Of a stretch of 37,289 bases of DNA, positions 336-35,010 are shown in pieces. This DNA is from Candidatus Saccharimonadota bacterium (GTDB lineage: Bacteria > Patescibacteriota > Saccharimonadia > Saccharimonadales > Saccharimonadaceae): assembly GCA_017404795.1 (NCBI GenBank), contig JAFRBR010000010.1, forward strand, positions 1 to 37,289, read 5' to 3'. Below the pieces are notes generated by a model. That model searched no databases. It had not been told where the DNA came from and saw only the letters and a list, made by a program, of their open reading frames with translations. Within the stretch, counting starts at the first letter, position 1. Each line of letters opens with the position of its first letter. The position numbers and the translations under genes are program-made.

Positions 336-3065
<2,730 letters not shown>

Positions 3066-3084
3066 ATTTCCTACTATATAATAA

Positions 3085-3180
3085 TGATGGAAATTTTTCA
3101 AGCGTGCCCTTCGGGCACGCTCCGGGCCGCTCTGGCCGAGTCTTTATGTCCCGCAGGACACATTTGAAAAATTTCCATCA
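3085..3180. repeat. Intergenic cloverleaf-like palindrome between queH and the AI-2E gene
   Basis: A perfect 17-bp outer inverted repeat pairs 3085-3101 with 3164-3180. Inside are an 8-bp hairpin (3102-3120, GCGTGCCC-TTC-GGGCACGC), a GGCC-GCTCT-GGCC hairpin near 3125-3138, and TGTCC-CGCA-GGACA at 3147-3160. The layout (long outer stem plus inner hairpins) matches the in-gene elements. The sequence shares only short motifs with them, such as TCCGGGCCG with the alaS element and TGCCCTTCGGGCA with the complement of the obgE one. Confidence 0.8.
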
Positions 3181-4328: not shown

Positions 4329-5454
4329 GGCCGCTAAGAATAAAACTGGCAAGACTAAAGACGCCAGAGCAAATTCCTTTGTGCGGAGAATATCTTCAAA
4401 ACCGGTCTTAATAGTGCTGTTTATTTTGATTAATGTGGCGGTAATTGCGGCTACGGCAGTAGCGGAATTCGGTAATTCCGAAAACGCAGCTGAGCTCTCG
4501 GAAGTGCACATTAACTGGTGGCTGCTGGTGCCGGCGGCGCTATGTTTTTTGCTGGCAATTACGGCAGAAATCCATAAATATGTCGTGATGATGAAAGAAA
4601 TGTCCAAACGGGATGATTTTGATCGCAAATATGCGCGCAAAGTGGCTCGACGGACGGTGCTGCTGGGCAAATATTACGATAATATCACACCGGCGGCGAT
4701 TGGTGGACAGCCGTTTCAGATTTATTATATGCATAAAAACGGCAAGCTGCCAACTGGGCTAGCAACTACTATCCCGATTATTGGCATGGTGTCGGGACAA
4801 ATCGGGTTTTTGATTATTGCGGTGCTGTGTTTTTTGTTTGGGAGTTTGACAATTAATAATGCGGCACTGATTGCGACGGCTTGTTTTGGGTTGCTGTTTT
4901 ATGGGTTTTGGCCGGTGATTATTATGATTGCGACTTTTATGCCGAAAGGCGCTAAGGAGTTGATTACCTGGATAGTAAAGGGACTCGCCAAAATCAAAAT
5001 CGTCAAACATAAAGAAAGAACCATCACTAAGATTGAATACGAAGTAGATGAATACGCTAAAAGCGTACGCAAAATTTTGAAAACTAAAGGGTTGTTTTTA
5101 AGAACTATTGGGCTGTCGGTAGTGTTTAATGCACTGGTAGCGATGATTCCGTTTTTCGTGCTGACGGCGTTTGGTGGAAACGTGGACTTTCTGCCTTGCT
5201 TGGTGACAACGGTGGCAGTGACGAGTGCGGTGTATTTCATACCGACGCCAGGCAATGCGGGGGCGGCGGAAGGTACGTTCTTTGTGGTATTTTCGGCTTT
5301 GTCGCAGGGCTATGTGTTCTGGGCGATGCTGGTGTGGAGGTTCTTCTCGTATTATATATATATTATTATGGGGCCGATTATTTATCTCAAGATGCACCTA
5401 GAAAAAAGGCGAGGAACAAAAGATGGAAATCCGAGAAAATCTCCGGCAGCGTAA
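4321..5454 (+). CDS. Lysylphosphatidylglycerol synthase-type flippase domain protein (UPF0104)
   Basis: A 377-aa integral membrane protein of the LPG_synthase_TM / YbhN family, related to the flippase half of MprF. The aminoacyl-transferase half is absent, so lipid flipping rather than lipid lysylation is the likely role. Seen: membrane segments from about residue 26 on, the family motifs GKYYDNITPAAIGGQP and PTPGNAGAAEGTF, and WRFFSYY near the C terminus. It overlaps the AI-2E gene by 8 nt and the next gene by 32 nt, which indicates translational coupling. The lipid or glycan-lipid substrate cannot be told from sequence. Confidence 0.88.
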   Translation: MTEAAKNKTGKTKDARANSFVRRISSKPVLIVLFILINVAVIAATAVAEFGNSENAAELSEVHINWWLLVPAALCFLLAITAEIHKYVVMMKEMSKRDDFDRKYARKVARRTVLLGKYYDNITPAAIGGQPFQIYYMHKNGKLPTGLATTIPIIGMVSGQIGFLIIAVLCFLFGSLTINNAALIATACFGLLFYGFWPVIIMIATFMPKGAKELITWIVKGLAKIKIVKHKERTITKIEYEVDEYAKSVRKILKTKGLFLRTIGLSVVFNALVAMIPFFVLTAFGGNVDFLPCLVTTVAVTSAVYFIPTPGNAGAAEGTFFVVFSALSQGYVFWAMLVWRFFSYYIYIIMGPIIYLKMHLEKRRGTKDGNPRKSPAA

Positions 5455-7411
5455 GATCATCAAGATTTGCGCTACTGCTGCGGGGATAATCGTGGTCGGG
5501 TTTGCGACTTGGATGGTGATTGGTTTAGCGAATCAAAAGACGGATTTGGAAGTAATACGGAGACTGGAAATGCCGGAATTTGCTAGCCTCGAGGGTCAAT
5601 TTGCGGTAGGTGAAGGTAATTATGCTGTAGCGGTGGATGGTGAACAGGTGGCAGGAAATGAATCGGCGGTGCTACCAACGGCTAGTACAGCAAAAATGAT
5701 TTTGGGGCTAGCAGTGATGCAGGCTAAACCGTTTGAGGTAGGTTCTGCGGGTGAAACGATTGCGCTAACTGATGAAGATTATGATCGCTACGTGTGGTAT
5801 TATAACCACGGCGGTTCAAACACCGCAGTGCAGCCGGGCGAAGAAATTAGTGAGTACGAGGCGTTGATGTCGGTGTTTTTGGCTTCTTCAAATAATATGG
5901 CGGATAGTTTGGCAGCGTGGGCGTTTGGTTCGCTGGATAATTACCGCGAATACGCCACTAAGATGCTGGGGGAGTGGGGAATTAATGAGACCACGATTGG
6001 CGCGGATGCGAGTGGATTTGAGGCTAGTACTACTAGTACAGCTGGAGATTTAGCCCAAATTGGAGCCAAGGTGCTAGAAAATCCGGTTTTGGCTGAAATT
6101 GTCGGGACCAAAAGTTACACCGTGCCGGTGGCGGGGCTAATTGAAAACACTAATCAGCTCCTAGGGCAGGCTGGAATCGTTGGGATAAAAACCGGATATA
6201 TCGGCGAGATATCAGGGTATTGTTTGGTAGCTGGATACTTGGCGGGGGAACATATCATGACTACGGCTCTGATGGGGACGGAGAGTAGAGAAGCGTCGTT
6301 TGGGGAAAGTTTGAATTTGGTGGTCAAAATGCAGGAGCTTTTGCCGGAGAAATCGTTAGTGAAGGCGGGCGATACGGTGGGATATTATGATAGTTGGTGG
6401 ACGGGGCAAGTTAAAATCACCGCCGAGCAAGATTTGGCTGTGATTGGCTGGGCAGAGGCCGAGCAAGAGGTAGATTTAGAAATGGATGGACCGACAGGTG
6501 TACTAAAAATCAAAATCGGCGAACATGACTACGAGGCGCCGGTCAGAGCAGATGAATATAACAAGGAGCCGAGTTTTGGTGAGCGGTTGGGACATTTGTT
6601 TGGTTGGGCTAAGACAGATAAAATTGAAGTTGAAGTAGAACAGGTGGAAGAAAATGAGGAGACTGAGGATGAAGCTCAAAAACCAGAGGAGACTGAGGCG
6701 GCAAATGAGCCTGCGGTAGAAACTGACAAGTCGGCAGTGTTTACCAATGCGCCGTCTAATAACTGCACTGTTAAGTACGGGGCGCTGATGTTGATTAATC
6801 CGAATTTCAGTGTGGAAAATGATTTTATTGCGGCGCGACGCGGAGAGTTGATTAGCTTGTCGGCGAATTATGGGATTAACGAATTAAATGCTGGCAATGG
6901 TGATAATTTGCTAGATGCCGAAGCGGCTGGGCAGATTAATAAAATGATCAAGGCTTACGAGGCCGAAAATCCGGGGCACACGATGGGAACTTTGTCGTGT
7001 TTTCGCTCGGTGGGGACGAATTGCGGAAGGCTTTGCGCGGCTACGGGGACAAGTGACCATCATACGGGGCTAACTTGTGATTTAGTGGATCCGGCTTATG
7101 GGATGTCGCTAGATACTAGCACTTATGACCAGCATCCAGATTGGCAGTGGCTAAAAGCAAATTCTTATAAATACGGCTTCATTGACCGATTCCCCGAGGC
7201 TTGGGCAGGAGGCTCAATGGATGAGCCAGTCAATGTAGACGCCAATGGGTCGACGGGATTATTTGAGACTTGGCATTATCGGTATGTGGGTGTAGGACCA
7301 GCGACCGAAATTGCGACTGGCAAATATAATAACGGGCAGTATGATTCATTGGAACACTATCTGCTTGCACGTGGAATGGTTTCAGATTTAAAAAATGGTA
7401 CTTGTAAATAA
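5423..7411 (+). CDS. Two-domain peptidoglycan carboxypeptidase: serine DD-peptidase (S11) fused to a VanY-type M15 metallopeptidase
   Basis: The 662-aa protein has an N-terminal membrane anchor (about residues 12-35). A penicillin-binding S11 domain follows with its triad: Ser88-x-x-Lys91 (TASTAK), SSNN at 155-158, and Lys256-Thr-Gly. After a Glu-rich linker (about 405-440) comes a D-alanyl-D-alanine carboxypeptidase domain of the VanY/M15B type. It has SDHHTGLTCD, where His546 and Asp553 fit the S-x-H-x-x-G-x-x-x-D zinc motif, and TWHYRY with His618. Both domains should act outside the membrane, trimming stem peptides. Having two mechanistically different carboxypeptidases on one chain is unusual. 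Last gene of the envelope operon; its stop codon lies in the left arm of a palindromic element. Confidence 0.9.
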   Translation: MEIRENLRQRKIIKICATAAGIIVVGFATWMVIGLANQKTDLEVIRRLEMPEFASLEGQFAVGEGNYAVAVDGEQVAGNESAVLPTASTAKMILGLAVMQAKPFEVGSAGETIALTDEDYDRYVWYYNHGGSNTAVQPGEEISEYEALMSVFLASSNNMADSLAAWAFGSLDNYREYATKMLGEWGINETTIGADASGFEASTTSTAGDLAQIGAKVLENPVLAEIVGTKSYTVPVAGLIENTNQLLGQAGIVGIKTGYIGEISGYCLVAGYLAGEHIMTTALMGTESREASFGESLNLVVKMQELLPEKSLVKAGDTVGYYDSWWTGQVKITAEQDLAVIGWAEAEQEVDLEMDGPTGVLKIKIGEHDYEAPVRADEYNKEPSFGERLGHLFGWAKTDKIEVEVEQVEENEETEDEAQKPEETEAANEPAVETDKSAVFTNAPSNNCTVKYGALMLINPNFSVENDFIAARRGELISLSANYGINELNAGNGDNLLDAEAAGQINKMIKAYEAENPGHTMGTLSCFRSVGTNCGRLCAATGTSDHHTGLTCDLVDPAYGMSLDTSTYDQHPDWQWLKANSYKYGFIDRFPEAWAGGSMDEPVNVDANGSTGLFETWHYRYVGVGPATEIATGKYNNGQYDSLEHYLLARGMVSDLKNGTCK

Positions 7412-7527
7412 GCCAAAATAGTATTTTTCGGGTCGCGTCGCTCGCGCCCGTCGCCACGGGGCTCGCGCGCTAATTCTCGCGCTGCCGCGCTCCGAAATCC
7501 CCTTAAAACACTATTTTGGCTTATTTA
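7405..7527 (+). repeat. Family-1 palindromic element, intergenic copy
   Basis: A perfect 18-bp outer stem pairs 7405-7422 with 7510-7527. The core hairpin is CCCGT (7447-7451) and ACGGG (7456-7460) with loop CGCC. The left arm contains the stop codon of the preceding carboxypeptidase gene, and the right arm abuts the -10 box of the ABC exporter. The core and the tract after it (CTCGCGCGCTA...CGCTCC) match the ruvX-mltG copy. Confidence 0.85.
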
Positions 7528-7544: not shown

Positions 7545-9296
7545 ATGCTTAAACTTTTCCGGTATTTGAAGCCATATTGGTGGCAAGTTGGGTTGTTGAT
7601 TCTGGCGACGGGCGGGCAGACTTTTGCGACCTTGCAAATTCCAGCCTTGATGGCGGACATTATCAATAATGGGATTGTCAAGGAGAACACGGATTATATC
7701 TGGCAGCAGGGGCTGATTATGCTGGGGGTGGCGGTGATTTCGGCGGGTTGCGCGCTAGTATCTAGTTATTTTTCGGCTAGGGTGGGGGCGAATTTTTCTC
7801 GTGATGTGAGGGCGGATATTTACCGGCAAGTGCTGAATCTGAATTTGGCGGATACTAAGGATTATAGTACGGCATCTCTAATTACGCGGACGACGAATGA
7901 CGTCAATCAAGTCCAGCAGATGATTATGATGATGCTGTCGGTGATGTTGCTCGCGCCGATGTTTTGTATTTTTGCGCTGGTGATGGCGGTACAGACGGCG
8001 CCGGATATGAGCTGGATTATCGCGATTGGGGTGGCGGGGATTATTATCTCGGCGATTGTGATTCTAGGAATTACGATGCCTAAATTTAAGATTTTCCAGA
8101 AATTAATTGATAAGATTACTCTGCTAACGCGCGAGAATTTGACGGGGCTAAAGGTGATCCGGGCTTTTGACAATGAGGGGCTAGAGAAAGATAAGTTTGA
8201 TAAGACTAATAATGAGTTGATGCGGCTCAATATCTTCTTAGATAAGATCTTGAAGCTGGAGGGGCCGCTGGTGAATATTATCTTTAACGGGACGACTTTG
8301 CTCTGTTCATGGGTAGGGATTTCGCTACTCAATAAAGATTTTACCTATCTTGGGGATATGTCGGCCTTTGCTCAGTATGTGGCTTACGTGATGATGTCGT
8401 TCTTGATGCTGTCGATACTGTTTGTGATGTTGCCGCGGGCCAATGTCTGTGCGGGGCGGATTAGGGAAGTGCTAAACATCAAGCCTAAAATCTGCTGGAA
8501 AGTTGAGACCGAGGGGGTGCCAGATAAGCAAGCTTCGATTGAATTTCGGAAAGTGGATTTTCGTTATCCTGGGGCGGGCGAAAAGGTGCTGGACGACATC
8601 TCCTTCAAAGCGCAAGCGGGGGAGTCGGTAGCGTTTATTGGCTCGACGGGGTCGGGTAAGTCGACTCTGATTAATTTGGTGCCGAGATTTTACGAAGCGA
8701 CGAGTGGAGAGATTTTGGTTAACGGGATTAATGTGCGAAATTACGCACGGGATGATTTGATCCGGCGGATTGGCGTGGTGCCGCAAAAGGGCGTGCTATT
8801 TGCTGGTACGGTGAAGTCAAACATTAAGTTTGGGGCGCCCAAGGCGACTGATGCGCAGGTGGAGGAAGCGGCCAAGATTGCCCAGGCGGATAACTTTATC
8901 CGGAAACTACCGGATGGCTATGCGGCGCATATTGCTCAGGGTGGTACCAACGTGTCTGGCGGACAGAAACAACGCCTGTCGATTGCGCGGGCGATTTGTA
9001 AGAATCCGGATATTTTTATTTTTGACGATGCGTTTTCGGCTCTGGATATGAAGACGGATGCGCGCCTTAGGGCGGCTTTGAAGCCGGTGACTGACGAGGC
9101 GGTGACTTTAATTGTGGCGCAGAGAGTAAGTACGATTAAGGATGCTGATCAGATTATTGTGCTAAATGACGGCAAAATTGTAGGCAAGGGAAAGCATTTT
9201 GATTTGCTAAAAAAGTGCAAAATTTACCAAGCGATTGTGGAATCTCAACTATCTGAGGCGGAGTTTAAGAAAGAAATGAGGCGGGCTGATGGGTAG
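7545..9296 (+). CDS. ABC exporter half-transporter, degenerate-site subunit
   Basis: A 583-aa type IV ABC exporter half (membrane domain about 1-310, nucleotide-binding domain about 330-575). Seen: Walker A GSTGSGKST and the canonical signature VSGGQKQRLS. Walker B reads FIFDDAFSALD, so the catalytic Glu is Asp, and the switch-loop His is Gln (VAQRVSTI). These changes define the degenerate ATP site of heterodimeric exporters such as TM287/288. The gene overlaps the partner by 8 nt (ATGGGTAG). The substrate is unknown; this fold exports drugs, lipids or peptides. Confidence 0.93.
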   Translation: MLKLFRYLKPYWWQVGLLILATGGQTFATLQIPALMADIINNGIVKENTDYIWQQGLIMLGVAVISAGCALVSSYFSARVGANFSRDVRADIYRQVLNLNLADTKDYSTASLITRTTNDVNQVQQMIMMMLSVMLLAPMFCIFALVMAVQTAPDMSWIIAIGVAGIIISAIVILGITMPKFKIFQKLIDKITLLTRENLTGLKVIRAFDNEGLEKDKFDKTNNELMRLNIFLDKILKLEGPLVNIIFNGTTLLCSWVGISLLNKDFTYLGDMSAFAQYVAYVMMSFLMLSILFVMLPRANVCAGRIREVLNIKPKICWKVETEGVPDKQASIEFRKVDFRYPGAGEKVLDDISFKAQAGESVAFIGSTGSGKSTLINLVPRFYEATSGEILVNGINVRNYARDDLIRRIGVVPQKGVLFAGTVKSNIKFGAPKATDAQVEEAAKIAQADNFIRKLPDGYAAHIAQGGTNVSGGQKQRLSIARAICKNPDIFIFDDAFSALDMKTDARLRAALKPVTDEAVTLIVAQRVSTIKDADQIIVLNDGKIVGKGKHFDLLKKCKIYQAIVESQLSEAEFKKEMRRADG

Positions 9297-22795: not shown

Positions 22796-23944
22796 ATGAT
22801 TTATTTGGACTTTGCGGCGGCGACGCCAGTCAACGATAAAGCCTTAAAAGCGATGGGGCCGTATTTTGCTGAAGAGTTTTTTAATCCGTCGAGTCCGTAT
22901 TTGCCGGCTAAAAAAGTGGCGGCTGAGTATGAGTCAGCTAAGGCTGTGATTGCTCGCGCTATCGGTGCCAAGGCGACCGACCTCGTCATCACTGCCGGAG
23001 CGACTGAGGCGAATAATTTGGCGTTTACAGCTTTAAGTTTAGGGGAGGCTGAGCCTACTTTTAAAATTCTATATCTGGAGACGGAACATGATTCGGTTCG
23101 TAGGGTCGCTGAGCAGTGTGGCGGGGTGGCGATTCAGGTGCTGCCGAGTGGGTTGATTGATCTTGAGGATTTGAAGGGTAAAATTACAGATGGGACGGAG
23201 CTGATTTCGGTGTCACTAGTCAATAATGAGCTAGGGACGATTCAGCCGCTGGCGGAGGTGGCGAAGATTGTGCGCGAGATAAGGTTGGACCGGATGCGGA
23301 GAGGTGTAAAACGACAGTTATTATTACATTCGGATGCTTCGCAGGCGCTGAATTTGCTGGATGTGAACGTGGCGCGGTTAGGGGTAGATTTGATGACTTT
23401 GAATTCGGCGAAAATTTATGGCCCGAAGGGGGTGGGGGCGTTATATGTGTCGCATGAGGCCAAGTTGCGACCTCTAGTGGCTGGGGGTGGGCAAGAACAG
23501 GGGCTGCGCTCTGGGACGGAAAATGTACCTGGGGTGATTGGGTTTGCGACGGTCGTAGCCGAAGCCAAGAAACACGTCAAGAATAATCGAGCCAAATATC
23601 GCGAATTAAGGCGGATTTTATTAGATGAATTACAGGGGTATGAGCTGATTAATAAAAAGCATACGCTTGACAATTTTGTAATTTTGTGCTATAATGGATT
23701 GGATGCGGAACGATTAGTGTTTCTTCTTGAAGACAAGGGGGTATATGTGGCAACAGGGGCGGCGTGTGCGGCTTCTAAAGGGGTGCGGTCACATGTGTTA
23801 AAAGCAATTGGGCTGTCTGATTCTGAAATTGCTGGGTCTCTGAGACTGTCTCTGGGCGAACTGAATGATGCCGAGCAAATGCATGAAGCTGCGCGGATTA
23901 TCAACGAAGTGGTTTTGGCAGAAAGGGCTAGAATTAATGGCTAA
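22796..23944 (+). CDS. Cysteine desulfurase (IscS/NifS family)
   Basis: A PLP enzyme that takes sulfur from cysteine; here it most likely supplies MnmA, encoded by the overlapping next gene (8 nt). Seen in the 382-aa protein: DFAAATPVN, ITAGATEANNLA (cofactor phosphate site), HSDASQAL (Asp for the pyridine nitrogen), the PLP Lys in NSAKIYGPKGVG, RSGTENVPG, and catalytic-loop Cys in ATGAACAAS. The His that usually precedes the PLP lysine is Ala here. No iron-sulfur scaffold gene is nearby, so a thiouridine-dedicated role is the better inference. Confidence 0.93.
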   Translation: MIYLDFAAATPVNDKALKAMGPYFAEEFFNPSSPYLPAKKVAAEYESAKAVIARAIGAKATDLVITAGATEANNLAFTALSLGEAEPTFKILYLETEHDSVRRVAEQCGGVAIQVLPSGLIDLEDLKGKITDGTELISVSLVNNELGTIQPLAEVAKIVREIRLDRMRRGVKRQLLLHSDASQALNLLDVNVARLGVDLMTLNSAKIYGPKGVGALYVSHEAKLRPLVAGGGQEQGLRSGTENVPGVIGFATVVAEAKKHVKNNRAKYRELRRILLDELQGYELINKKHTLDNFVILCYNGLDAERLVFLLEDKGVYVATGAACAASKGVRSHVLKAIGLSDSEIAGSLRLSLGELNDAEQMHEAARIINEVVLAERARING

Positions 23945-25199
23945 AACGGTATATGTCGGGATGAGCGGGGGGGTGGATTCGAGTGTGGCGGCGATGCTTT
24001 TGGTGGAACAGGGATATAAAGTGGTGGGGGTGTATATGAAAAACTGGTCGGAAGACCTGCCTGGCATGAAATGCCCTTGGGCGGAAGACCTCGCCGATGC
24101 CAAGCGGGTGGCGGTGAAGCTCCGGATTGATTTCGAGGTCTGGGATTTTGAAAAAGAATACCGCGAAAAGGTAGTGGAATATATGCTTTCGGAATTTAAG
24201 GCTGGCAACACACCAAATCCTGATATTATGTGTAATCAAGAGATCAAGTTTAAGTTATTTTATGAGAAAGCAATGAAACGGGGGGCTGATTTTATTGCCA
24301 CTGGACATTATGCGAGAACCGGACAATTCGAATGCGTTCTCTCGGGGACGGGTCCCTCGCGCCCGTCTTCACGGGGCTCGGGCCCTCACACCTTGGCAGC
24401 AGCCTCCGGACTGCCCCGAGAGAAGCATTCGCAATTGTCCCAAACTCGATTAATGCGAGCAGTGGACGAAAATAAGGATCAGACGTATTTTCTTTACCGA
24501 ATTTCTGAGAAAGCGCTGGCGCGGACGCTTTTTCCGATTGGGGAGATGACGAAACCGGAGGTGAAGAAGTTGGCGGAGAAACATGGGCTACATAACGCTT
24601 ACAAGAAAGAGTCGATGGGGGTGTGCTTTGTGGGAGAGGTGGGGATGAAGGATTTTTTGAAAAAATATATTGATGTTCAGCCCGGGGAGATTCGGGAGAT
24701 TGAGAGTGAAAATGTTTTGGGGTATCATGAAGGGGCGGTGTTTTATACGATTGGGCAGAGGCATGGGTTGTATCTTAGTGGTGAAAAGGGTGCTGTGAAT
24801 GACGGAATGCCATATTATGTCGTTAAGAAAGACCTTAAAAACAACATTGTGTATGTATCGAAAAACCTAAATGATGAGCATCTATGGACCGATAAGCTAC
24901 AATTAAAAGATATAGTATTAAGGCAATCCGAATATATCCTCTCGGGGACGGGTCCCTCGCGCCTGTCTTCACAGGGCTCGGGCCCTCACACCTCGGCAGC
25001 AGCCTCCGGACTGCCCCGAGAGGAATATTCGCGATTGCCTTCTATCCTTGTTCGCCTGAGGCATCGGGCGCCGTTAGTTCCGGCGGAGTTTGACGGAGAG
25101 ACGCTGTATTTTGAGCATAAAATTAGGCGCCCTGCGAGTGGGCAGAGCGCGGTGATTTATGACGATGGAATCTGCCTGGGTGGCGGAATAATCATCTAG
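23937..25199 (+). CDS. mnmA: tRNA-specific 2-thiouridylase MnmA with two in-frame palindromic insertions
   Basis: MnmA adenylates and thiolates U34 of Lys, Glu and Gln tRNAs. Seen: PP-loop GMSGGVDSS (residues 8-16), catalytic Cys99 in NPDIMCNQ, ATGHYAR, KDQTYFLY, and the second catalytic Cys230 in ESMGVCFVGE. The length is 420 aa against about 360 for the family. The excess is two inserts at residues about 129-168 and 329-368. Each comes from a 120-bp palindromic element (24321-24440 and 24921-25040), and both are read in the same frame to give [15 protein letters not shown]-like peptides. All catalytic motifs survive. The ATG at 23937 overlaps the desulfurase; the longer frame from 23865 is rejected. 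Confidence 0.96.
   Translation: MAKTVYVGMSGGVDSSVAAMLLVEQGYKVVGVYMKNWSEDLPGMKCPWAEDLADAKRVAVKLRIDFEVWDFEKEYREKVVEYMLSEFKAGNTPNPDIMCNQEIKFKLFYEKAMKRGADFIATGHYARTGQFECVLSGTGPSRPSSRGSGPHTLAAASGLPREKHSQLSQTRLMRAVDENKDQTYFLYRISEKALARTLFPIGEMTKPEVKKLAEKHGLHNAYKKESMGVCFVGEVGMKDFLKKYIDVQPGEIREIESENVLGYHEGAVFYTIGQRHGLYLSGEKGAVNDGMPYYVVKKDLKNNIVYVSKNLNDEHLWTDKLQLKDIVLRQSEYILSGTGPSRLSSQGSGPHTSAAASGLPREEYSRLPSILVRLRHRAPLVPAEFDGETLYFEHKIRRPASGQSAVIYDDGICLGGGIII
24321..24440 (+). repeat. Family-1 palindromic element, mnmA copy A
   Basis: A 27-bp outer stem pairs 24321-24347 with 24414-24440 and has only two single-base bulges. Inside are the core hairpin (CCCGT 24362-24366 with ACGGG 24371-24375, loop CTTC), flanked by a GGGTCC/GGGCCC stem, and a second hairpin GGCAG/CTGCC (24395-24415). 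This makes a three-way-junction fold. It inserts 40 codons with no stop into a variable loop after the GHYAR motif. Confidence 0.92.
24921..25040 (+). repeat. Family-1 palindromic element, mnmA copy B
   Basis: The same length and fold as copy A, exactly 600 bp downstream. The central 66 bp differ from copy A at only 3 positions. All 16 differences over 120 bp are transitions, and 14 of them make seven base-pair-preserving double changes. The mnmA sequence between the copies is not duplicated. Confidence 0.92.
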
Positions 25200-25466: not shown

Positions 25467-25581
25467 AGCAATTTGTTTACTATTCCTGAGACGCCTGCGT
25501 CCGCAAAAAGTAAAAGCCTAAAGGCCTTGACTTTTTGCTGGGACTCCGGGAAACTGTCTCAGAAACAGTAAACAAATTGCT
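25467..25581. repeat. Intergenic long palindrome upstream of alaS
   Basis: A 26-bp outer stem with two mismatches pairs 25467-25492 with 25556-25581. An inner hairpin pairs 25503-25518 with 25523-25538 (GCAAAAAGT...CTTTTTGC). It ends 22 nt before the alaS -10 box. The core sequence is unlike families 1 and 2, but the architecture is the same. A regulatory role on the upstream side of alaS is possible. Confidence 0.8.
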
Positions 25582-25615: not shown

Positions 25616-27661
25616 ATGGATGCAAATGAGATCAGGAAAAAGTTCTTAGAATTTCAAGAAAAACGGGGGCACAAGGTGATTGCGCCGGCGCCACTGGTGT
25701 TGGAGGGTGACCCGACGACTTTGTTCACGGGGTCGGGGATGCAACCTTTATTGCCATATCTGTTAGGTGAGCCTCATCCTCTAGGGAAAAGGTTGTGTGA
25801 TTCGCAGCCTTCGATGCGAATGCAAGATATTGACGACATCGGTGATCCCAGGCATACGACGGTGTTTGAAATGTTAGGAAATTGGTCGCTAGGGGATTAT
25901 TTCAAAGAGGAGCAGATTAGAGGGTTTTTTGAATTTTTGACCGAGGTAGTGAGGCTAGACCCGAGCAAAATCTATGTCACCTGCTTCATTGGGAACGAAA
26001 AATACGGCATCCCTAAAGATACTGAGGCGGCAGAGATTTGGCAAAAAGTATTTGAGGAGGCGGGGATTGAGGCTAAAATTGCCGAAATTGGCACTGCATC
26101 TGAGGGCGATAAACGGGGAATTAAGCCGGGGGAGCGGATCTTCTTCTATGATGACCATGAAAACTGGTGGTCTAGGGGTGGTGGGTGTGAGTCTACCCCG
26201 ATTGGTGACCCCTGTGGGCCAGATTCGGAAGTATTTTACGACTTTGGCGAAGATTTGCAAGACGTCGATAAATACGGGTTGGCCCATCCGGCTTCAGACG
26301 GGGCCAGATTTATGGAAATCGGCAATCAGGTGTTTATGCAATACCGGAGACTAGAAGATGGGTCATTTGAGGAGTTAGAGAAGAAAAATGTGGATTTTGG
26401 CGGAGGACTGGAGCGAATTGCGGCAGCGGCGATTGGGTCGTTTGATGTGTTTAAGATTTCCCTGATGAAGCCGATTATTGATAAGCTGGAAGAGATCTCA
26501 GGAAAAAAATATGAGAACAATACCGATGAAATGCGAGTAATTGCGGACCATATCAGGGGTGCGTATCTGTTGGCGGCTCAGGGGCTGGTGCCGTCCAATA
26601 AAACTCAGGGGTATGCGATGCGGAGGTTGCTCCGGCGGGCGATTTTGCGTGCATTAGATCTCGGGATTTCCGCTAATTTCTTGGCGGAAATTGTGCCGAT
26701 TGTGGCCGAGATTTATCAAGATTTGCCGGGTTCGATTTTGACTCATCGAGAGAGTGCGCTCGAAACACTGCTAGCAGAGGAAAAAATGTTTCGTAAGACA
26801 CTTAATCGAGGGCTGAAAGAGCTCAAAAAGATGGCGCGGGTCCTGTCCGAACCTATTTCTTCGGCATCCGGACTTGAATTTTCGAGCACGTCATACGCTG
26901 GGCCGCGGGCAGAACCGTCCCTTTGGGACGAACCTGTCCGGGCCGTCAGGAATATACGTGTCGAAAATTCAAATCATTTTACGATGCCGAGAGAAACAGG
27001 TTCGGCCACCCGCGCCCTGTCTGGATACGATTTGTTTAAGTTGCAGGATACTTATGGGTTTCCGCTGGAGTTGTCGGTGGAGGAGTGTTATAGAGAGGGG
27101 ATTGAGTTGACGACAGATTATGTGAAAGAATTTGAAACGGCTTTGAAGGAACAGAGGGAGCGGAGTCAGACGGCTTCGAAGGGGATGTTTAAAGGTGGGC
27201 TGGAGGACCACGGTGAGCAGTCTATAAAATACCATACTGCTACGCATTTGCTGCTTGCGGCTTTGCAGAAGTTAGTTGCTCCTGATATTGTGCAAAAGGG
27301 GTCAAATATTACATCAGAGCGAGTGCGGTTTGATTTTAATTGTGATCACAAACTCACCCCTGAGGAAAAATCCGCCGTAGAGGCCCAGGTCAATGAATGG
27401 ATTGAGGCAGATTTGCCCGTGGTGCATGATGAGTATGACAAAGCCTATGCGCGAGATGAGCTACACGCCCACGGGCAATTCTGGGATAAATACCCCGAAA
27501 AATTGACCGTCTATACGATTGGCGATTTTGAAAAACCGGTGTCACGCGAAGTTTGCGGTGGTCCCCATGTGGAGCATACTGGCGAAATTGGGCATTTTAA
27601 GATCAAAAAAGAGGAGTCGTCCTCGGCTGGGGTGCGGCGAATCAAAGCGGTAGTGGAATAG
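25616..27661 (+). CDS. alaS: Alanyl-tRNA synthetase lacking C-Ala, with an in-frame palindromic insertion
   Basis: Charges tRNA-Ala. Class II catalytic core: IRKKFLEFQEKRGH, LFTGSGMQPLLPYLLG, HTTVFEMLGNWSLGDYF and GGGLERIAA, followed by the tRNA-recognition region with RRLLRRAIL. The second additional (editing) domain keeps HTATH and REVCGGPHVEHTG zinc ligands. The protein stops right after this domain (GVRRIKAVVE), so the C-Ala/DHHA1 domain is missing: 681 aa against about 870. About 60 residues (406-467), just before SGYDLFKLQDTYGFPLELS, come from a palindromic element and match no family sequence. Confidence 0.95.
   Translation: MDANEIRKKFLEFQEKRGHKVIAPAPLVLEGDPTTLFTGSGMQPLLPYLLGEPHPLGKRLCDSQPSMRMQDIDDIGDPRHTTVFEMLGNWSLGDYFKEEQIRGFFEFLTEVVRLDPSKIYVTCFIGNEKYGIPKDTEAAEIWQKVFEEAGIEAKIAEIGTASEGDKRGIKPGERIFFYDDHENWWSRGGGCESTPIGDPCGPDSEVFYDFGEDLQDVDKYGLAHPASDGARFMEIGNQVFMQYRRLEDGSFEELEKKNVDFGGGLERIAAAAIGSFDVFKISLMKPIIDKLEEISGKKYENNTDEMRVIADHIRGAYLLAAQGLVPSNKTQGYAMRRLLRRAILRALDLGISANFLAEIVPIVAEIYQDLPGSILTHRESALETLLAEEKMFRKTLNRGLKELKKMARVLSEPISSASGLEFSSTSYAGPRAEPSLWDEPVRAVRNIRVENSNHFTMPRETGSATRALSGYDLFKLQDTYGFPLELSVEECYREGIELTTDYVKEFETALKEQRERSQTASKGMFKGGLEDHGEQSIKYHTATHLLLAALQKLVAPDIVQKGSNITSERVRFDFNCDHKLTPEEKSAVEAQVNEWIEADLPVVHDEYDKAYARDELHAHGQFWDKYPEKLTVYTIGDFEKPVSREVCGGPHVEHTGEIGHFKIKKEESSSAGVRRIKAVVE
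26833..27016 (+). repeat. Family-2 palindromic element inside alaS
   Basis: A long imperfect inverted repeat joins about 26833-26893 with 26955-27016, starting with perfect GGCGCGGGT/ACCCGCGCC ends. Inner hairpins include CCGTCCC-TTT-GGGACG (near 26916-26930). The inner arms (GTCATACGCTGGGC at the left, CCGTCAGGAATATACGT at 26943-26959) recur in the complement of the obgE 3' region. No stop arises in the translated frame. Confidence 0.85.
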
Positions 27662-33561: not shown

Positions 33562-35010
33562 ATGCGGATAATTGGGTTGGATATTGGCGAAAAACGCATT
33601 GGCGTGGCCAAGGCGGACTCTAGCACCCGGATTGCGGTACCGGTAGGGTTTTTGGAGGTAGATGGCTCAGAATGGCAGGAAATCGCCCGAATTGCTAATT
33701 TACAGGGGTCTGAGTTCTTTGTGTTGGGCTTACCTAGGAGTAATGAAGGGGCGGAAACCCAACAATCTCTATATGTGCGAAATTTTGCCAAGGCGCTGGT
33801 GAGCAAGATGCCAGGGGCGAAAGTACGATTTCAAGATGAATCTTTGACTTCGGTGATGGCTGAAGAGCGTCTGAAGGCCAGGGGTAAGGCTTATGAGAAG
33901 GGCGATATCGATGCTGAAGCCGCCGCGATTATTTTGCAGGATTTTATGGAAAGCTTCAGTTCTTCGGAGTCATTTTCTTCGGACACGCTTCGCTCGCGCC
34001 CGTCTTCACGGGGCTCGCTCGCTATAATCGCTCCAGCCGTCGCTCCAATGTCCTCAGAAAAGACTCCCGAAGAACTGAAAACGATTAAAAACCTAGCCAA
34101 AAAGGAGGCGGATAAGGTAAAATTAAACACTAAGAAAGCGAAACATCAGATGAAAACAGCAACAAAATTGATTTCAGGGGTGGCGATTGTGGTGATTTTG
34201 GCATTAACCGCGACTGGGGTGGCCTTGATTATTAGAGAACAGCGTTATAGAGAATATCAGGAGTGGTTTGCCGAGCAAGAAGCCCAGATGGAGGCGGAGG
34301 TTTTTACTTTTACTGTCCGTCCAGGGGAGACGATTTACGACGTGGAGCAGAATTTGGTAGCGGTGGGCTATAATGCTACAGAGGTCAAACAGGCGCTTGG
34401 CGCTAGTTATGATTTTAGTTTTTTAAGGGGTAGGCCGGCCGATGCGACTCTAGAGGGGTATTTATACGGAGAAACGCATGAATTTTATAAAGATACTCCG
34501 GTCAAAGAGGTGATTGAGACTTATCTCAAGGGAATGGAGCAGGTGATAAACGATAATAACCTAGAGGCGCGCTACCAAGAACAGGGGTTGTCGCTGTATG
34601 AGGGGATTACACTGGCCTCGATCATCCAAAAAGAGGCCAAAACTGAGGATATGCCGACGGTAGCGCAGGTGTTTTTGACTCGGTTAGAAAATGGGATGCT
34701 GTTGGGGAGTGATGTAACGGTGTCATACGCATTAGATACGATAGACCCCTATCGGCAAATTTACGGGGATAATTTTGCGGCGGTAGAGGTGGATTCGTGC
34801 TATAATACTCGGCGTTACGGGGGTCTACCCTGTGGGCCCATCTCTAATCCGGGGCTTTCGGCTCTCCTAGCGGTGGCGGAGCCGAGTGATACTGCTTACC
34901 TTTACTTCTTGACAGGAGACGATGGTTTGATGTATTATAGTTATACAGAGGCCGAGCATCTCCAGAATGCGGCTGTCCATTGTCAGGCTCTCTGCACAGT
35001 TTCATTATGA
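33562..35010 (+). CDS. RuvX (YqgF)-MltG fusion protein
   Basis: The 482-aa protein joins two genes that are neighbours in many bacteria (yrrK and yrrL in Bacillus subtilis). Residues 1-131 are a complete RuvX/YqgF RNase-H-fold nuclease: [38 protein letters not shown] and [14 protein letters not shown]. Residues 132-173 come from a palindromic element. A Lys-rich stretch, one membrane helix (about 203-224) and an MltG lytic transglycosylase (about 240-480) follow, the last with [43 protein letters not shown] and the final EH. The topology works, with RuvX inside and MltG outside. ATG 34150 could give MltG alone as an internal start. Overlaps the next gene by 4 nt (ATGA). Confidence 0.93.
33955..34080 (+). 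repeat. Family-1 palindromic element at the ruvX-mltG junction
   Basis: A near-perfect outer stem pairs about 33955-33984 with about 34050-34080 (TTCAGTTCTTCGG... with its complement). The core hairpin is CCCGT (33999-34003) and ACGGG (34008-34012), loop CTTC. It adds 42 codons, reads RPSSRGS like the mnmA copies, and lies exactly where RuvX should end. Confidence 0.88.

Follow-up and report, generated by a model that had tools for sequence, protein, structure and literature searches.

The window, by which we mean the whole 37,289-nucleotide stretch of DNA analyzed, comes from a genome of a genus of ultra-small gut bacteria within the Saccharibacteria. It carries the tRNA-modification gene mnmA, whose reading frame contains two palindromic elements, and further elements lie elsewhere in the window, both within genes and between them. 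We refer to the elements by the family of their central core. The features are as follows (the evidence for each element is given in parentheses).

1837 to 1952, plus strand: family A element, in frame in the tgt-like ORF 1316-2524 (core repeat, fold, ORF)
3085 to 3180, no strand assigned: palindromic element with core GTGCCCTTCGGGCAC / GTCCTGCGGGAC, at the 5' end of ORF 2487-3101 on the minus strand (core repeat, inverted repeat, fold)
7405 to 7527, plus strand: family A element, intergenic between ORFs 5423-7411 and 7545-9296 (core copy, inverted repeat, fold)
23937 to 25199, plus strand: mnmA (tRNA 2-thiouridylase), 420 aa, with two in-frame palindromic inserts (Pfam PF03054, PF20259, PF20258)
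24321 to 24440, plus strand: family A element 1, 120 bp, in frame in mnmA (loop 1 residues)
24921 to 25040, plus strand: family A element 2, 120 bp, in frame in mnmA (loop 2 residues)
25467 to 25581, no strand assigned: family B element, intergenic between mnmA and alaS (core repeat, inverted repeat, core clustering, fold)
26833 to 27016, plus strand: family D element, in frame in alaS, ORF 25616-27661 (fold; Pfam tRNA-synt_2c)
33955 to 34079, plus strand: family A element, in frame in ORF 33562-35010 (core copy, fold, ORF)

The second mnmA element starts 600 bp downstream of the first. Recounting the differences between the two reproduced the initial annotation position for position: the 120-bp elements differ at 16 sites, all of them transitions, with seven pairs changed in both arms and the remaining two changes at 24336 and 24394. 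The fold described there, an outer stem plus inner hairpins, was likewise recovered in both elements by RNA folding (z = -6.4 and -6.3), and 0 of 200 shuffles were as stable. In element 1, the arms occupy approximately 24321-24347 and 24414-24440, with two inner hairpins in the core between them. The 24-nt piece at 24339-24362 had no further match in the window at three or fewer mismatches, and none in 100 shuffles; no Rfam family reached its gathering score for the elements. At the protein level, both inserts fall in gaps separating aligned stretches in matches to MnmA structures in the PDB. An AlphaFold2 prediction for the MnmA protein encoded here (mean pLDDT of 73, fold otherwise mostly confident) shows both inserts as low-confidence turns between strands, with pLDDT below 50 at residues 133-166 (loop 1) and 331-364 (loop 2).

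The remaining elements in the window follow the same plan. Near-perfect, locus-specific arms flank the element at 7405-7527, and the family B element at 25467-25581 has a core unlike that of family A and arms that are locus specific by the same design. The core family of the alaS element, family D, also occupies mnmA loop 1 and loop 2 in other species. The name tgt for ORF 1316-2524 is our assumption from its sequence alone. We presume from reading the sequence that ORF 33562-35010 joins an N-terminal RuvX/YqgF-like part to an MltG-like part downstream of it. The element at 33955-34079 sits at the junction of these two parts, and its insertion may have led to the fusion of two adjoining genes. 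The same genome holds approximately 20 more copies of the family A core or of core parts. An apparent family A element also lies near the 5' end of xseA (exonuclease VII large subunit; G000:C25:2003-2120, L029). At some loci, elements are nested or tandemly duplicated: two core parts with another palindrome in between (G000:C24:24250-24373; L021, L023), arm segments repeated ahead of the core (L093, approximately 46-250), and a second arm pair within the first (L140, approximately 2770-2920).

The initial annotation had left it to a search of relatives whether copies exist beyond chance. They do: of 99 genomes of this Saccharibacteria genus, 68 carry family A elements, and when 275 kb of the own genome was surveyed for inverted repeats, 16 such palindromes were found versus 0 in Markov-shuffled sequence. 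In an order-wide sample of 149 genomes from 104 genera, a family A match appeared in one genus only (E 1e-5). The exact core pattern was found in 115 stretches and, among the matches listed, all were from Candidatus Saccharibacteria, most of them MAGs of rumen or gut origin. Clustering the cores of 207 collected elements gave families of 148, 14, 11, 6, 5, 4, 2, and 2 members plus singletons; the design recurs in six or more multi-member core families, of which at least five are unrelated to family A. Each element consists of a family-specific core of approximately 60 to 140 nt with inner hairpins, enclosed by a locus-specific outer stem of 15 to 35 bp. The core hairpin pairs are mostly invariant, with few variants (7 TA and 2 AT in 132). 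In this sample, the three largest core families were mostly genic and the other multi-member families nearly all intergenic. Family C (tggactt ... tggtctaaatctcattat; L024:15763-15951, L036:5931-6106, L040:2241-2468), intergenic in this sample, has a second, longer inner stem and seems to form a palindromic-element lineage of its own. All genomes used were MAGs or drafts; recurrence of the same design, in frame, in dozens of independent assemblies argues against an assembly artifact.

We gathered mnmA, present in 96 of 99 congeners, from the related genomes and compared the insert regions. Loop 1 (ATGHYAR to LLRAVDENKDQTYF) and loop 2 (LKDxxxR to VRLRHRAPL) are filled by insert families that vary from species to species, and in other species these loops comprise a few residues only. 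A site in a methylase gene, from NLKW to F-x-[VIL]-x-x-GDA, is likewise occupied by different families or empty. Many more genes carry elements besides mnmA, alaS, and the methylase; from sequence reading, we take these to resemble tRNA synthetases, tsaD, gatA, truB, dus, rluB, obg, and cysteine desulfurase. The hosts checked against Pfam are mnmA, alaS, the class-V aminotransferase of the window (cysteine desulfurase-like), and the methylase. We judged reading frame from the open frames of orthologs and dropped element length modulo 3, which is meaningless when taken from an inverted-repeat finder because arm ends are fuzzy. Open frames were also compared in genic versus intergenic elements, and the outcome was set aside as biased by the definition of genic.

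The frame runs open and stop-free across the insert site in the mnmA orthologs (among those listed) and in the methylase orthologs. These open frames bear on whether the inserts are removed or skipped, by intron-like splicing or by the ribosomal bypassing that the initial annotation had raised. Bypassed inserts are known as the byp elements of Magnusiomyces; these mitochondrial elements are untranslated and free to accumulate stops and frame shifts, whereas the inserts here keep an open frame. Removal or skipping would suit inserts that disrupt essential genes and fold into strong hairpins, as these do. Against this stand the stop-free frames and the mapping of the mnmA inserts to low-confidence turns between strands, and we regard such removal as extremely improbable. 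The inserts are presumably translated in the cell.

The outer arms hold a feature beyond what the initial annotation could see: they are host derived and specific to each locus. At mnmA loop 2 of several species, the 5' arm extends 17 to 20 nt into the conserved LKDxxxR codons, and the 3' arm is its inverted copy (arm pairs AAGGATGTTTTCCTTCG ... CGAAGGGAAACATCCTT in L219 and AAGAGCTTTTCTTT ... AAAGAAAAGCTCTT in L230). In the methylase of eight species (L234, L235, L241, L246, L248, L250, L257, and the own genome, L258), the conserved NLxW codons make up one arm, each species with its own synonymous codons. In other methylase classes, the 5' arm is a mirror of the species' own 3' codons (FEIS in L244, FELA in L233, FSLS in L236). 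Because the arms of most mnmA inserts lie wholly within the variable loop, host origin is not provable for those. Outer arm positions have no consensus beyond approximately 35 nt from the core hairpin, and the host-derived arms blur the element boundaries.

We quantified this relationship as the complementarity of each 5' flank to the 3' flank of its own versus other species, with 2000 permutations per site. At filled methylase sites, own-species complementarity was 13.1 versus 6.7 for other species; the corresponding values were 12.2 versus 5.9 at filled mnmA loop 1 and 11.8 versus 6.1 at loop 2 (0 of 2000 permutations in each case). At element-free sites, the difference between own and other flanks was not significant (750, 599, and 125 of 2000 permutations), and so the palindrome was, on average, absent before the element. 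This result weighs against insertion into pre-existing host palindromes (hairpin loops), with the arms being the target, which we consider quite unlikely even though short palindromes do exist at a few element-free sites (methylase of L272, mnmA of L228 and L229). The L272 methylase site carries a palindrome of approximately 12 bp with no core (AACTTGAAAAAAG ... CTTTTTTTCAAGTT), which may equally be a scar left by a core lost long ago or a target palindrome that predates any element.

The initial annotation read the paired changes as strong covariation, with selection or a copying process preserving the fold. That covariation is borne out, as is a process that keeps the palindrome intact. The covariation score of the orthologous methylase elements exceeds that of shuffles and of slid versions. 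Were an RNA helix under selection, G·U mismatches should far exceed A·C, and equal counts would mean that selection for an RNA fold is not what matches the arms. We counted mismatches in the 207 elements with ends trimmed and the fixed positions next to the core left out. Internal stem positions on the mRNA strand showed G·U to A·C at 50 : 51 (species taken as independent); intergenic elements, counted on the plus strand, gave 23 : 26, and the core-strand ratio was 39 : 47. As a control, tRNA acceptor stems from the same loci gave 18 G·U and 0 A·C (Fisher p = 1.5e-5 against 50 : 51). Two apparent strand biases were discarded along the way: an element-strand excess in a first count (A·C 57 versus G·T 19), which was gone without the fixed core-adjacent positions, and a mild core-strand G·T lean at positions beyond 30 nt (61 : 38), which the larger set with trimmed ends did not bear out.

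Mirrored substitutions carry the same message. When elements with similar arms were compared, 124 changes were mirrored (79 transitions and 45 transversions) and 94 one sided. Among five orthologous methylase elements, both sides had changed in 6 of 21 pairs and one side only in none, and the mirrored changes include A-U to C-G and U-A to A-U or G-C. This pattern is expected if one arm is rewritten from the other. Selection on an RNA fold, whether an mRNA hairpin or an element RNA, would instead drive compensatory substitutions, and it draws on the strong folds (z of approximately -6.4), the covariation scores, and the transition-only differences between the two window elements, which are one small sample of a mixed spectrum. 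Set against it are the equal mismatch counts on the mRNA and core strands, with intergenic elements alike, the tRNA control, the many mirrored transversions, and the orthologous set, which held no one-sided standard-pair cells. The property is, moreover, common to unrelated cores, and arms copy host codons. We therefore hold RNA-fold selection as the preserving force to be very unlikely. Symmetric mismatches would also arise if selection favored a perfect DNA palindrome on either strand, a reading made less likely by mirrored transversions without intermediates.

The same substitutions speak to when the arms arise. They might be made once at insertion as an inverted copy of the flank, by snap-back synthesis, and then only decay, which would account for locus-specific arms in unrelated families and for arms that reach into conserved codons on one side. 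However, where different species carry one core subtype at a shared site, mirrored changes separate their elements. Such changes, seen also between the window elements, need continued maintenance or repeated reinsertion, making one-time creation unlikely. The two mnmA elements have similar arms, which suggests that a copy can carry its arms along, to be rewritten later.

Taken together, we consider it likely that these are selfish palindromic elements, sited like the Rickettsia palindromic elements (RPEs), with host-derived arms kept identical by arm-to-arm copying at the DNA level. The arm-to-arm gene conversion offered as an alternative by the initial annotation is thus the right class of process. 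In the proposed mechanism, non-autonomous elements would insert into intergenic DNA and, in frame, into protein surface loops, presumably by some route of transposition. One arm would be the present or former host flank and the other its inverted copy, and the arms would be kept identical most likely by quasipalindrome correction, in which the polymerase switches template at the hairpin, or else by cruciform gene conversion. Such arm copying, rather than RNA-fold selection, would yield the "compensatory" changes. We infer the copying, and template switching as its probable step, from patterns between species rather than from an event caught in progress, and these patterns would look no different under cruciform gene conversion.

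Repair genes are relevant here, since SbcCD cleaves hairpins and MutS repairs mismatches. None of 20 genomes of this order had an SbcD score above cut-off, and a search of the own genome detected no MutS (controls positive for both). Without SbcCD, and possibly without MutS, palindromes would be able to persist and be rewritten. Loss of ExoVII would favor template switching; it was ruled out as a cause by XseA (ExoVII large subunit), present in 20 of 20 genomes. More tentatively, the elements may represent a class of mobile element without fixed ends, in which a core hairpin rewrites neighboring host DNA into inverted arms on insertion and afterwards. The termini would then be templated by the target and the palindrome would spread into conserved codons, with several unrelated cores behaving alike in one genus through a general property of DNA replication. 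Target-templated termini are plausible as a general rule.

Template switching at quasipalindromes is already established in E. coli, where a stalled polymerase copies the nascent strand and turns an imperfect inverted repeat into a perfect one (PMC7202029), and in yeast, template switching homogenizes arms within genes (PMC8604942). As in those cases, one arm would template the other and produce multi-nucleotide changes in coding DNA, and the arms here become or stay identical without bias to RNA-stable mismatches. Quasipalindrome correction is known at scattered sites, whereas here it would maintain mobile families genus-wide. RPEs, named by the initial annotation as the closest analogue, are indeed so for in-frame, multi-copy, protein-coding palindromes. 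PMC10969869, citing Ogata et al. (2000, 2002), describes them as palindromes of approximately 100 to 150 bp, in several families, in frame in housekeeping genes. Compared by description, the likeness extends to size, several families, dispersed copies, and in-frame siting in unrelated housekeeping genes. The present elements differ in belonging to Saccharibacteria, with no known relation by descent, and in having locus-specific arms that mirror host codons. Arm identity decays in RPEs, which lose repeat identity over time according to PMC6649704, whereas the arms here co-change between orthologs.

In the mitochondrial coding palindromes of Nematomorpha, arms encode conserved protein segments and stay matched, and template switching has been proposed (PMC6649704). 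No mobile core families are described for those palindromes, whereas here dispersed cores lie between the arms and recur at hotspots; the present elements thus combine the niche of RPEs with nematomorph-like arm upkeep. MITEs and REP/RAYT systems are also small, non-autonomous palindromic repeats. Unlike MITEs, the ends here are not conserved between copies. A link to the Y1 transposase of REP/RAYT systems was rejected, as PF01797 was not found in the own genome or in 11 congeners. Our literature search, light on subscription journals, found no report of palindromes in Saccharibacteria.

Palindromic elements read as part of proteins are a known kind; what would be new here is that the target templates their arms. 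The present elements extend protein-coding palindromes, otherwise found in the literature searched only in Rickettsia and mitochondria, to Saccharibacteria. Strong covariation can arise without RNA function, which bears on any method that reads covariation as demonstrating an RNA structure. The link between tolerance of palindromes and loss of SbcCD or mismatch repair is now testable. For this genus, the elements would preserve, in nature and across the genus, a record of DNA copied from arm to arm within essential genes, in which protein loops are rewritten by a mutational process.
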